This document shows positions 13,377 to 17,095 of a stretch of DNA of 64,000 nt, in pieces. The first letter of the stretch is position 1, and every line of letters starts with the position of its first letter. The stretch is from Chitinophaga barathri (GTDB taxonomy: Bacteria > Bacteroidota > Bacteroidia > Chitinophagales > Chitinophagaceae). Made by a program: the position numbers and the translations under genes. The notes below the pieces were generated by a model. That model did not search any database and was not told the origin of the DNA. It worked only from the letters and a program-made list of their open reading frames with translations. The stretch is taken from positions 1 to 64,000 of the forward strand of contig NZ_RMBX01000004.1 in assembly GCF_003807585.1 (NCBI RefSeq), read 5' to 3'.

Positions 13377-14747
13377 ATGACTGAAGTAAAAAAGGACCGC
13401 CGCGAATTCCTCAGGCTTTCCCTGATGGGGGGCGCAGGCGTTGCCCTGAGCGCAATGGGGATGCCGGCCAGCAGCTATGCACGCATCATGGGCGCGAACG
13501 ACAGGGTAAACGTAGGCGTGGTAGGGTTTTCCGACCGTTTCCGCCAGGCGCTCATGCCTTGCTTTATGAACAATCATAAAGAACTGAATTTCGATATCGT
13601 GGCCGTATCCGACATCTGGAACAGGAGAAGGGACGAAGGCAAAGCCATCCTCGAAAAACAACTGGGGCACAGCGTTCAGACCTGTGTGAACAATGACGAA
13701 CTGTATAAAATAAAAGACCTTGACGCTGTTATGATCGCCACGGCGGACTTCCAGCATGCCTTTCATACCACCGAAGCAGTCAACAACAAAAAGGATGTGT
13801 ACTGCGAAAAACCTTTCGCGGAAACCATGGCGGACGCCCGTATGGCCCTCAAAGCTGTAAAAGCATCCGGCAGGGTGTTCCAGGTGGGCACGCAGCGCAG
13901 GAGCGGCCCCAGCTATCATTCCGCCGCAAAGTTCATCCAGGACGGCAAATTTGGCCCCATCACCATGGTGGAAATGACCTGGAATGTAAACCAGCCCGGC
14001 CGCTGGCGCAGGCCGGACCTTACCGGCACCATCAAAGAATCCGATGTGGACTGGCAACGTTTCCTCTGCACCCGCCCCAAAGACAGCTGGGACCCGCGCA
14101 AATATCTTGAATTCCGCCTTTTCTGGCCTTATTCCTCCGGTATCTTCGGCCAGTGGATGACGCACCAGATAGATACTGTACACTGGTTCAGCGGCCTCAA
14201 ACACCCCCGCAGCGCAGTGGCAAACGGTGGCATCTACCAATGGAAAGACGGACGCTCCAATGCGGACACGCTCACCGCCGTATTCGACTACGGTCCTGAA
14301 AACGACCCCGCCACCGGCTTCCAGGTAGTGTATAGTTCCCGCTTCCACAACTCAGCCGGCGGCACAAAAGAACTTTATTACTCAAACGGCGGCATGATCG
14401 ATATGAGCACGAATAAGATCAGCCCCACCGGCGGCCTGAGGGAAAGAGAAGCCAAAGAAATGGGCATGAAAGCCAACCTCCTCCCCGACATGGACATAAG
14501 CATATCTGCTGCTGCCGTAGAAGCCGGCGCAAATACAGGCGGAGACGACACCACGAACGCACACGTGCGCAACTGGATGGAATGCGTAAGGAAACAGGAC
14601 GTTAAAACAAACGCACCGATAGAAGCCGCTTATTCCCATTCCATCGCGCTGATCATGGGCACAGCCGCTTACAGGACCGGTTTAAAAGCAACATTCGACG
14701 AAACCAAACAAGACGTAATCGTAGGAGGGAAGGTGTTTACACTATAA
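13377..14747 (+). CDS. Tat-exported Gfo/Idh/MocA-family oxidoreductase
   Basis: 456 residues. The N-terminus has a twin-arginine signal (KKDRREFLRLSLMGGAGVAL), indicating folded export with bound cofactor. The Rossmann domain (about 40-170) holds RVNVGVVGFSDRFRQ, the strand IVAVSDIW, and the family's signature DVYCEKPFAETMADA (EKP lysine, about 141-155). The second domain contains GHVFQVG-like VFQVGTQRRSGPSYH and the metal- or substrate-contacting GQWMTHQIDTVHWF. Secreted members act on sugars or glycans with tightly bound NAD(P). Operon partner of the TIM-barrel protein upstream. Element 1 of the hairpin family terminates it. Confidence 0.88.
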   Translation: MTEVKKDRREFLRLSLMGGAGVALSAMGMPASSYARIMGANDRVNVGVVGFSDRFRQALMPCFMNNHKELNFDIVAVSDIWNRRRDEGKAILEKQLGHSVQTCVNNDELYKIKDLDAVMIATADFQHAFHTTEAVNNKKDVYCEKPFAETMADARMALKAVKASGRVFQVGTQRRSGPSYHSAAKFIQDGKFGPITMVEMTWNVNQPGRWRRPDLTGTIKESDVDWQRFLCTRPKDSWDPRKYLEFRLFWPYSSGIFGQWMTHQIDTVHWFSGLKHPRSAVANGGIYQWKDGRSNADTLTAVFDYGPENDPATGFQVVYSSRFHNSAGGTKELYYSNGGMIDMSTNKISPTGGLREREAKEMGMKANLLPDMDISISAAAVEAGANTGGDDTTNAHVRNWMECVRKQDVKTNAPIEAAYSHSIALIMGTAAYRTGLKATFDETKQDVIVGGKVFTL

Positions 14748-14770
14748 TTTCCGCCTTTCCTCTCCATGGT

Positions 14771-14878
14771 GGGCTGGTTCAAATTGTATGTTTTAAGAAA
14801 ATAAACTGGGCGTTGTTTCTTTTGGGCAATGGGCACAGTATTTTCTTAAAACATACAATTTGAACCAGCCCTTCTTTT
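14771..14878 (+). repeat. variable-arm hairpin, element 1 (also terminator)
   Basis: Arms 14771-14803 and 14839-14871 are a perfect 33-bp inverted repeat (starting GGGCTGGTTC). The 35-nt spacer 14804-14838, read on the minus strand, begins CTGTGCCCATTGCC and ends GCCCAGTT, as in elements 2 and 3. The arms share nothing with theirs. TTCTTTTTTT follows the right arm, so it can terminate the oxidoreductase gene that ends at 14747. It has the opposite orientation to elements 2 and 3. Confidence 0.85.
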
Positions 14879-15011
14879 TTTGACTTCGTTGAAAGTTATA
14901 GTGTTTGGGTGGGGAGCAGGAGAAATTGGTTAATTAAGGTAGCGTTTTCCGCTTTTGCATGGGCGGGGGAGACTTCTTCCAGCAACAAACCCTCTCATTT
15001 CCCTGGATTAG

Positions 15012-15129
15012 AGGCCGTAGGAATTTAAAGAAATAATTTAAAATTTCGTAAAAAGCTGTGCCCACAGCCCTGAAGCCACAATGCCCAGTTCTTTTTAGGA
15101 AATTTTAAATTATTTCTTTAAATCTCCGC
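15012..15129 (+). repeat. variable-arm hairpin, element 2
   Basis: Arms 15023-15046 and 15100-15123 are a perfect 24-bp inverted repeat, extended by TAAAAAG (15049-15055) / CTTTTTA (15091-15097). The 35-nt loop 15056-15090 begins CTGTGCCCA and ends GCCCAGTT. Flanks AGGCCGTAGGA (15012-15022) and TCTCCGCTT (15123-15131 region) are shared with element 3. The right arm contains the last codons and the stop of the PaiB-like gene. Confidence 0.85.
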
Positions 15130-15739
15130 TTCGTTTGAGCATTTCGGCGGCGATTTCCTGTGACTGGGAGTTGGGATCGTTTTGCAGGTGTTGTACCACG
15201 CTGGCGTAGTCTTTTTCGTTTTTGTTCTGGCTTAGTTTGAAGCGGGTATCCACGCGGGTGATCGTGATCTCAAAACCGGTGATGGCTTTGAGATTGTTGT
15301 GCAGTTCTTTTTCGCCGATGTCTGAAATGCTTACGGGGTGGGCGCTTGCGGCTTCGTATTTGTTCATCAGGGCGGTGAGCGATTCGGTCAGTTCCTGTTC
15401 GCTCTGGATGCGCAGGGTGCCGTATATATGCACCGCAATATAATTCCAGGTGGGGATTTTGTCTTTTTCGTACCAGGAAGATGAAATATAAGCGTGCGGG
15501 TCTGAGAATACCGTCAGGAAGGTCTGGCCGCTGGTGAAGGTGGCGGACTGGGTATTTGCATTGGCAATATGCCCCCGCAGCACGTATTCTCCGGGCATTT
15601 TTTCCTCCAGCTCCACAGGCAGGTGCGTACCGACAGGCAGCCCGTCCTGTATGCTGATGAGTAGCGCGAAGCTATGTTTCCGGATAAATTCCGCGATGTT
15701 ATTCCAATCTGTTTCCTGGTGAAGGCGGGGAGCATACAT
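15110..15739 (-). CDS. PaiB-family FMN-binding protein
   Basis: 209 residues. PaiB-type proteins are dimeric split-barrel FMN binders, described in Bacillus as negative regulators of sporulation and protease genes. Motifs are MYAPRLHQETDW, then HSFALLISIQDGLPVGTHLP, GHIANANTQ, and the family core AYISSSWYEKDKIPTWNYIAVHIYG. The C-terminal tail ends SGDLKK, and these codons lie inside the right arm of hairpin element 2. The gene follows mrp on the same strand, 288 bp away, with element 3 between them. The regulatory role is by analogy. A heme or flavin-linked detoxification role is possible. Confidence 0.88.
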   Translation of the reverse strand: MYAPRLHQETDWNNIAEFIRKHSFALLISIQDGLPVGTHLPVELEEKMPGEYVLRGHIANANTQSATFTSGQTFLTVFSDPHAYISSSWYEKDKIPTWNYIAVHIYGTLRIQSEQELTESLTALMNKYEAASAHPVSISDIGEKELHNNLKAITGFEITITRVDTRFKLSQNKNEKDYASVVQHLQNDPNSQSQEIAAEMLKRSGDLKK

Positions 15740-15877
15740 AGGCTAAAATTTGAGTACTGGGGAAATAAATCAAGGCCAAGGAAAACAATCACAGAACGCA
15801 GTCAGGAAACACAATCACAGCCAGGGCTTGGATAATCCGGCATTTCAAAACAAACCTCATCCCCCCTTTGGGCTTAA

Positions 15878-15995
15878 AGGCCGTAGGAGTTCAAAAAGGT
15901 AAATTTAAATTCGTAAAAAGCTGTGCCCATTGCCTCAAAAAACAGCTGCCCAGTTCTTTTTATGAATTTAAATTTACCTTTTTGAATCTCCGCTT
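15878..15995 (+). repeat. variable-arm hairpin, element 3
   Basis: Arms 15890-15912 and 15964-15986 are a perfect 23-bp inverted repeat, extended by TAAAAAG (15914-15920) / CTTTTTA (15956-15962). The 35-nt loop 15921-15955 begins CTGTGCCCATTGCC and ends GCCCAGTT. The flanks AGGCCGTAGGA (15878-15888) and AATCTCCGCTT are the same as in element 2, with the same bulged C outside the stem. It lies between mrp and the PaiB-like gene. Confidence 0.85.
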
Positions 15996-16027
15996 TTAGA
16001 CAACTATCTCTACGATCTTTGTCGGCT

Positions 16028-17095
16028 CTATTTGTTGGCATTGCGCATAGCGATGCTGCGGGCGGTATTGCCTGCGAACTCCGCAAACGCTTCTTTGGTA
16101 ACGGCATCGTTTCCTGCTACAGCGGGCACGCCTTCGTCACCGCCTTCGCGGATGCTTTGTACCAGGGGTATCTGTCCCAGGAAGGGGATTTCCAGCTCTT
16201 CCGCCAGTCTTTTACCGCCTTCCTTGCCAAAGATGTAATATTTGTTCTGCGGCAGCTCAGCGGGCGTGAAATAAGCCATGTTTTCCACGAGGCCGATGAT
16301 CGGCACGCGGATCTGCGGGCTGCTGAACATGCTGATGCCTTTTTTGGCGTCAGCCAGGGCCACGTCCTGCGGGGTGGTTACGATCACCGCGCCGGTAACG
16401 GGCACGGTCTGCACCAATGTCAGGTGGATATCACCGGTGCCGGGAGGCATGTCGATGATCAGGTAATCCAGTTCTTCCCAGTACACATCGCTCACAAATT
16501 GTTTGAGGGCGCTGCTGGCCATGGGGCCACGCCACACGATGGCCTGTTTTTCATCCACCAGCAGGCCGATGGACATGAATTTGATACCGTATTTCTCCAT
16601 CGGCACGATCATGCCTTTGCCTTCCACGTTCACCATCATGGGTCTTTCGCCGCGTACGCCGAACATGATAGGAACGGAAGGACCGTAAATATCAGCGTCC
16701 ATCAGGCCTACCTTGGCGCCATCCTGCGCGAGAGCGAGTGCCAGGTTGGCCGCTACGGTGGATTTGCCTACGCCGCCTTTGCCGGAGGCCACCATGATGA
16801 TATTTTTAACGTTCGGCAGCAGGGATCTGCCGTCCTTACGGTTGGAGCTTACGTTTGCGGTCATTTTTACCTCTACTTCCGCCTCTTTGCTCACCAGGTG
16901 AATGATCGCGTTCACACAGGCGTTTTTTATCATTTCTTTCAGCGGGCAGGCCGGGGTGGTCAGTACTACCGTAAATTTTACTTTATTGCCGTCGATCTCA
17001 ATGTCCTTCACCATGTTAAGGGTCACCAAATCCTTACCCAGATCGGGTTCTTCCACATTTGACAGTGCCTCGAGGACCTTTTCTTTTGTGATCAT
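16028..17095 (-). CDS. Mrp/ApbC-family iron-sulfur carrier ATPase
   Basis: 355 residues. An N-terminal MIP18/DUF59 domain (about 1-90, with LVTLNMVKDIEIDGNKV and TTPACPLKEMIKNAC) precedes a deviant Walker A P-loop ASGKGGVGKSTVAANLAL (about 102-119) and switch motifs DADIYGPSVP and DYLIIDMPPGTGD. Mrp proteins carry and deliver Fe-S clusters in the cytoplasm. The usual C-terminal C-x-x-C is replaced: after VENMAYF comes TPAELPQNKYYIFG. So the bridging-cluster ligands of classical ApbC are absent. A minus-strand -7 box lies at 17132-17125. Confidence 0.93.
   Translation of the reverse strand: MITKEKVLEALSNVEEPDLGKDLVTLNMVKDIEIDGNKVKFTVVLTTPACPLKEMIKNACVNAIIHLVSKEAEVEVKMTANVSSNRKDGRSLLPNVKNIIMVASGKGGVGKSTVAANLALALAQDGAKVGLMDADIYGPSVPIMFGVRGERPMMVNVEGKGMIVPMEKYGIKFMSIGLLVDEKQAIVWRGPMASSALKQFVSDVYWEELDYLIIDMPPGTGDIHLTLVQTVPVTGAVIVTTPQDVALADAKKGISMFSSPQIRVPIIGLVENMAYFTPAELPQNKYYIFGKEGGKRLAEELEIPFLGQIPLVQSIREGGDEGVPAVAGNDAVTKEAFAEFAGNTARSIAMRNANK

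Follow-up and report, generated by a model that had tools for sequence, protein, structure and literature searches.

The window, a stretch of Chitinophaga barathri DNA of 64,000 nt analysed at its full length, contains three hairpins which share a loop and differ in their arms, each lying at the 3' end of a gene. How such hairpins arise, and by which process their two arms remain paired, is the question raised by this locus. The first hairpin, E1 (14771..14871, reverse strand), is made of perfect 33-bp arms around a loop at 14804-14838 and is separated by 23 nt from the stop codon of a GFO/IDH/MocA-family oxidoreductase gene (13377..14747, forward strand); the base of its stem is G+C-rich and is followed by TTCTTTTTTT on the forward strand. 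E2 (15023..15123, forward strand) has 33-bp arms with one G-G mismatch close to the loop (15056-15090), and its right arm covers the final codons and the stop of a convergent FMN_bind_2 gene (15110..15739, reverse strand), presumably PaiB-like. E3 (15890..15986, forward strand), with 31-bp arms, one G-T wobble and a loop at 15921-15955, is found at the 3' end of a gene for a NUBPL/Mrp-type P-loop NTPase, which we take to be Mrp (16028..17095, reverse strand). This gene ends about 10 residues earlier in the window than in relatives (16028-16070), a small length difference shifting the frame ahead of the usual stop, directly before E3; a sequencing error may be the source of this early end.

The three loop-sharing hairpins are real. 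The sequence-only reading had located the loops exactly, at 35 nt each, and had described arms of 33, 24 and 23 bp, all perfect and unrelated to one another. The first of these lengths was recovered, whereas the other two correspond approximately to the perfect outer portions of stems that extend further, to the mismatch-containing 33 bp of E2 and the wobble-containing 31 bp of E3. The arms of E2 and E3 turned out to be related, with both sides changed at 6 of 31 aligned pairs. The flanks said to be common to E2 and E3, AGGCCGTAGGA and TCTCCGCTT, were found again, the former on the left of both hairpins (15012..15022 and 15878..15888) and the latter on the right of E3 (15987..15995), its counterpart at E2 being CTCCGCTT inside the FMN_bind_2 gene (15124..15131; all forward strand). 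The loop pattern CTGTGCCCA-N{10,30}-GCCCAGTT matched three times in the window, as compared with a maximum of 0 in 100 shuffles. Folding of the three hairpins gave z values of -13.0, -8.2 and -9.8 relative to shuffled sequences (0/200 shuffles for each), and only five hairpins of the 64-kb window scored 13 or more, namely the three elements (33, 29 and 27) and two others, both at 13.

To describe the family, the genome of the window is designated G000 and the other carriers G006, G025, G027 and G056, the set searched comprising 79 Chitinophaga genomes. The dispersed family that had been anticipated, with its middle conserved, was indeed recovered: at least 46 copies (11 + 11 + 14 + 7 + 3) in 5 of these 79 genomes, with differing, almost perfectly matched arms. 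An exact search for the loop pattern gave three matches in G000 and, across the genus, matches in 11 of the 79 genomes, with arms at those of G000 and G006 only. The further copies came from covariance models and from DNA similarity. The first model (R1), derived from five copies, three from the window and two from G006, gave strong matches in G000 (11), G006 (11) and G027 (2), including one G006 copy outside the model; the weak matches obtained in eight other genomes of the genus (E 1e-4 to 0.1) were taken as chance. A second model (R2), built from 28 copies and used on the genus with 60 candidates scored per genome, added copies in G027, G056 and G025, and a DNA similarity search with one G027 copy recovered eleven that R2 had missed, six more in G027 and five more in G025. 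Because 60 candidates per genome (genus) or 12 (family) were scored and R2 missed these eleven, the copy counts are lower bounds. Two candidates were left out of the count, an R2 match in G047 (L339) corresponding to a different hairpin with a long loop, and a 26-nt piece in G025.

Outside the genus, R2 found no copy at E<=1e-4 among the best 12 candidates per genome in 384 genomes of other genera, and in the 394-genome family sample, of which ten are listed as Chitinophaga, only G000 matched under the same conditions. Exact-pattern scans of public collections listed at least 120 stretches each, which contained 241 matches. Among these listed matches, arms were present only at two, both from Chitinophaga chungangae (L052), and no other arm score exceeded 6; the bare loop pattern is therefore a chance motif among the matches listed. 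The element itself measures about 95-120 bp, with arms of mostly 27-33 bp, a loop of about 34-38 nt (22 in one copy) and short G+C-rich flanks. Rfam 15 gave no match at the gathering score for loci L290-L301 and window positions 14000-17000, the sub-threshold matches being mostly with microRNA-precursor models, and no description of this repeat family was found in the literature listings examined.

Most copies examined are located at gene 3' ends with one loop orientation. Fifteen of the 22 copies of G000 and G006 abut a gene 3' end, the distance from stop codon to arm ranging from -14 to +41 nt (14 measured), and the loop reads AACTRG... in the direction of the gene at 28 of 29 3'-end copies, a set which comprises the 15 from G000 and G006 and 14 of 15 further loci, includes non-independent orthologs and leaves other G027 and G056 copies outside the count. 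The other seven consist of an ortholog pair touching the start codon of a sigma-70-type gene (L290 1464-1559, L297 1211-1305), one copy per species in the interval separating an amylase-type gene from its neighbour, and three copies in the region from which a MATE and a DUF3822 gene (the latter assigned by Pfam) diverge, so that a pure terminator role does not cover all of them. By eye, E1 has a G+C-rich hairpin and a T-run at the gene 3' end; E2 and E3 have no U-run behind the stem. A terminator consensus scan, which allows loops of 3-8 nt only, detected none at E1-E3. The element-free relatives examined have no hairpin or a simple one at the ends of the GFO/IDH gene (30 of 69 loci examined) and of the Mrp-type gene, with one exception, G078 (L323), where a 6-nt loop flanked by perfectly palindromic arms of 60 bp or more is seen behind the GFO/IDH gene. 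Judging from position and orientation alone, the hairpin would act as RNA, forming or protecting the 3' end of the upstream transcript as a terminator or a barrier to RNases; such a role would explain the position and orientation of the copies.

Copies stay at orthologous places between two species, which allowed the evolution of the arms to be followed. Flank comparison of the 11 G000 copies with those of G006 gave nine one-to-one matches, that of 61210 resting on the gene side alone; 359504 is matched by a hairpin pair of G006, and E3 has no G006 ortholog. In the nine ortholog pairs, 52 of 258 stem pairs were changed on both sides (23 transitions and 29 transversions), and a mismatch or wobble in either species was found at 3 of the 258 positions. 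Several insertions or deletions in the arms were likewise mirrored on both sides. When 28 copies were aligned, the arm helix of 22 pairs consisted of standard pairs in 98.7% of its cells, and double changes were observed at 22/22 arm pairs, a count that leans towards the helix since the alignment was fitted to that structure. In the 28 hairpins of the family, wobbles were seen at 13 of 843 paired positions. For comparison, a script selected 26 simple terminators at 31 gene ends of the genus, and there wobbles accounted for 59 of 314 positions; this control is rough and inflates wobbles because G-T pairs with the T-run were counted and a few picks are doubtful. One loop has been reversed relative to both flanks between orthologs (678990 in G000 and 640713 in G006), in the 3' hairpin of the amylase-type gene, which is presumably GlgB-like.

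Pairing is less complete in a few copies, which counts against this pattern. Home copy 359504 has four and its G006 relative 1050026 has six, the other G006 relative having none, and some were also present in the G056 and G025 copies at the GFO/IDH locus. The 359504 hairpin (L294 1005-1082, MATE/DUF3822) resembles a fusion between the two outermost arms of the G006 pair (L299), and this putative fusion retains several mismatches.

Template switching between the arms of inverted repeats leads to homogenization of the arms and inversion of the spacer, and bacterial data favouring transversions are cited in the same paper (PMC8604942). The pattern seen here, with arms changed together, few intermediates and an inverted spacer, carries both signatures. 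It strongly indicates that the arms would be kept complementary through copying of one arm onto the other by DNA template switching, a process which would explain the inversion of the loop as well.

Two other origins of the paired arms have to be weighed against this copying. The hairpins could be RNA elements only, with selection on a duplex in the 3' UTR, ordinary compensatory mutations and a loop used as a protein- or RNA-binding site, an explanation that accounts for the 3'-end position and single loop sense, for the double changes along the whole arm helix and for the conserved loop nucleotides. However, wobbles are almost absent, the 29 transversions among the double changes cannot pass through G-U, and one loop is inverted between orthologs; we regard this explanation as rather unlikely. 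The sequence-only reading had instead proposed that an inserted cassette copies one local flank as an inverted duplicate, so that arms would be templated from local sequence and empty sites would hold one arm. Arms do differ among most copies of the home genome and, at some sites, the outer arm end extends into the last codons of the neighbouring gene, which makes limited outward growth of arms into local sequence possible. Against local templating, the 29-nt arms of 14 of 15 G027 and G025 copies are identical but for a few substitutions or a small deletion, and these 14 copies also share the flanks CCAGCGGA / GGGAGCGG and a loop close to 37 nt long; the fifteenth (L406) has a second arm type, also present in G027 (L347). 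For eight G027 copies, the 3' end of the neighbouring gene was located in G056 (8/8, one stretch reaching the contig end), G006 (7/8) and G024 (7/8), and the element was absent from all orthologous stretches shown. The longest match to the subfamily arm in these 22 orthologous loci was 8-13 of 29 nt, as compared with 7-10 in shuffled controls, a result that applies to the G027/G025 subfamily, empty sites of G000 having been viewed at the GFO/IDH and Mrp-type loci only. Since the arms of 14 loci are nearly constant and no arm was present in the empty sites checked, the arms were not copied from the insertion site; they descend with the element. Moreover, orthologous arms of two species can be aligned as one arm with paired substitutions, and the E2 and E3 arms are related. 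Local templating is thus already contradicted for the G027/G025 subfamily, and we consider it very improbable for the family.

When orthologs were aligned pairwise, 63 of 305 loop positions differed, a rate about that of the arms; in a joint alignment, the mean difference between ortholog loops was 0.270, above the 0.201 of the arms. In this joint alignment, loop differences were 0.271 between G000 paralogs, 0.328 within G006 and 0.320 between G000/G006 non-orthologs, and arm differences rose from 0.201 between orthologs to 0.332 between non-orthologs. When ortholog assignments were shuffled in 20,000 trials, means as low as those observed were obtained in 0.9% (loops) and 0.03% (arms). For seven of the nine home loops, the distance to a home paralog was smaller than that to the ortholog; one was tied and one was nearest to its ortholog. 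The likeness of the loops probably reflects constraint by a factor reading the loop, or loops being exchanged among copies; the distances fit constraint with saturation and loop exchange alike and do not separate the two. Tentatively, and with rather low confidence, the family could be regarded as a new class of 3'-end element whose identity resides in the loop only, a factor reading the loop, loops being exchanged between copies and the arms, with no limit on their sequence, being continually rewritten one from the other.

Some copies have been duplicated to new places, in agreement with the mobility proposed earlier. E3 appears to be a copy of E2 that includes about 10 nt of flank on each side and has related arms. 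Its flank starts immediately behind the position of the stop codon of the Mrp-type gene in relatives, and no family hairpin was seen behind this gene in any of the nine relatives examined. The gene found next in G006, G025, G027, G056, G008 and G010 (by eye), which we take to be RDD-like, is missing there in G000, as it is in G002, G024 and G026. In G027, the GFO/IDH-FMN_bind_2 pair has been copied to a place behind a zinc-type dehydrogenase gene, and the copy includes both arm types and about 20 nt from the tail of the GFO/IDH gene. At all eight G027 loci searched, the G056 ortholog was devoid of the element, and at six of these eight loci the hairpin follows an ordinary terminator with its T-run and has the same orientation. 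T-rich sequence was noticed by eye on both sides of several G027 and G025 copies, with no clean target-site duplication. Another short repeat (around GCCGCGCAGCAAAGGGCGG) is present behind G056 terminators where G027 has the hairpin (L407, L416, L422), which suggests that places behind terminators are a general hot spot.

Could a known type of mobile DNA account for this dispersal? In favour of REP or REPIN-type repeats mobilised by a RAYT (Y1) transposase, the hairpins are palindromic, intergenic, located downstream of genes and often in inverted pairs, as described for REPs (PMC3733652), and E2 and E3 have GTAG beside the arm. However, PF01797 gave no match at E<=1e-8 in any of the five carriers, although 14 of the 79 genus genomes have one, the G027/G025 subfamily has neither GTAG nor CGTC directly beside the hairpin, and REPs measure 20-40 bp (PMC3733652), as compared with about 100 here; a REP origin is accordingly a poor candidate. 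The hairpin could also be one end of a larger, decayed transposon or of a MITE of an unrecognised insertion sequence. Three G025 copies at unlinked places (L388, L392, L394) have about 180-190 bp upstream of the hairpin in common, which indicates that larger units spread too, and in G000, G006 and G027 the two hairpins of a pair lie about 110-285 bp apart. Yet, by eye, nothing clear is common between paired hairpins across loci except in the copied G027 pair, the arms, which would be the expected target of a transposase, are the variable part in G000 and G006, and a parent element was not seen in the stretches examined; we hold this origin to be just as improbable as a REP one. The flank scores of 44-83 between unrelated loci, which could have indicated conserved sequence between paired hairpins, apparently come from the loop of the partner hairpin.

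The upstream module of the G025 copies starts with repeated ATAGGCT motifs, which are also present in L401, L347 and L338, and sequence related to this module was found in L397 and L399. Reverse transcriptase was not detected in G006 and G056 (no RVT_1 match at E<=1e-8), in disagreement with a group II-like retroelement movement, which needs this enzyme in the carrier; RVT_1 matches are present in G000, G025 and G027. RAYT and reverse-transcriptase movers were set aside since the presence tests fail or are uninformative, and an attC-like integron reading was set aside on attC anatomy. The repeat is, as far as seen, non-autonomous.

Among described systems, the MITE-like sequences YPAL/RU-2, ERIC/RU-1, RUP and NEMIS are also non-autonomous, intergenic and about 100-200 bp long, and their transcripts fold into long stem-loops (PMC2229807), as expected of this family. 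YPAL targets span or adjoin dyad symmetries (PMC2229807), and six of eight G027 copies are behind terminators. Their inverted repeats contain 4-24 contiguous Watson-Crick pairs, with mispairs in the longer stems (PMC2229807), whereas most copies here have 27-33 almost perfect pairs, copy-specific arms and alike loops. The family has dispersed copies with filled and empty orthologous sites, as MITE-like sequences do, but not conserved terminal inverted repeats, the arms being near-constant only within the G027/G025 subfamily. REP/BIME sequences are similarly palindromic and located downstream of genes, between convergent genes and often in opposite orientation (PMC3733652); the present family differs from them by longer stems, by carriers in which the Y1 transposase was not found and by a subfamily, G027/G025, devoid of the tag. 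In our best reading, the family works like YPAL, ERIC and RUP, and departs from REPs by tag and transposase and from MITEs by the lack of conserved ends.

Template-switch homogenization, in which arms are made identical and spacers inverted as here, is a mutational process and not an element family, and its inverted spacers are of a few bp (PMC8604942), as compared with 34 in this case. Perfect inverted repeats surveyed across genomes are, in bacteria, enriched just behind stop codons as these hairpins are, but mostly have spacers of 4-5 bp with more substitutions than the arms (PMC13155455), in contrast with the long, alike loop of this family. The GC42 clusters of yeast mitochondria are short, mobile, hairpin-forming DNA too, with conserved stems and variable loops (PMC4478555), the reverse of what is seen here between non-orthologous copies. 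Intrinsic (rho-independent) terminators also occupy gene 3' ends and, like E1, have a G+C-rich stem base and a T-run; the stem of the present hairpins is two to three times longer and the large conserved loop belongs to a repeat family. At six of eight G027 loci, the element is located behind an ordinary terminator.

Taken together, we favour, with a probability of about 0.62, a lineage-specific, non-autonomous palindromic repeat that would provide genes with a 3'-end hairpin and whose arms would drift in concert by DNA template switching. A palindromic repeat with a conserved loop would disperse to new places, mostly gene 3' ends, and, after insertion, one arm would be copied onto the other by template switching, so that the arm sequence could drift freely while both arms change together. 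The same template switching would occasionally invert the loop, and the transcribed hairpin would form or protect the 3' end of the upstream transcript. The interpretation proposed at the outset is thus partly supported, in its mobile family with a constant middle and not in its locally templated arms.

Orthologous hairpins of this family, in which 52 double changes stand beside three intermediates, allow arm-to-arm copying in bacterial palindromes to be counted in a natural setting. They also carry a warning that covariation in long stems need not reflect selection on RNA. Finally, whether a mobile palindrome is able to take the place of ordinary terminators at several genes, with only its loop remaining alike, is a question made tractable by this family.
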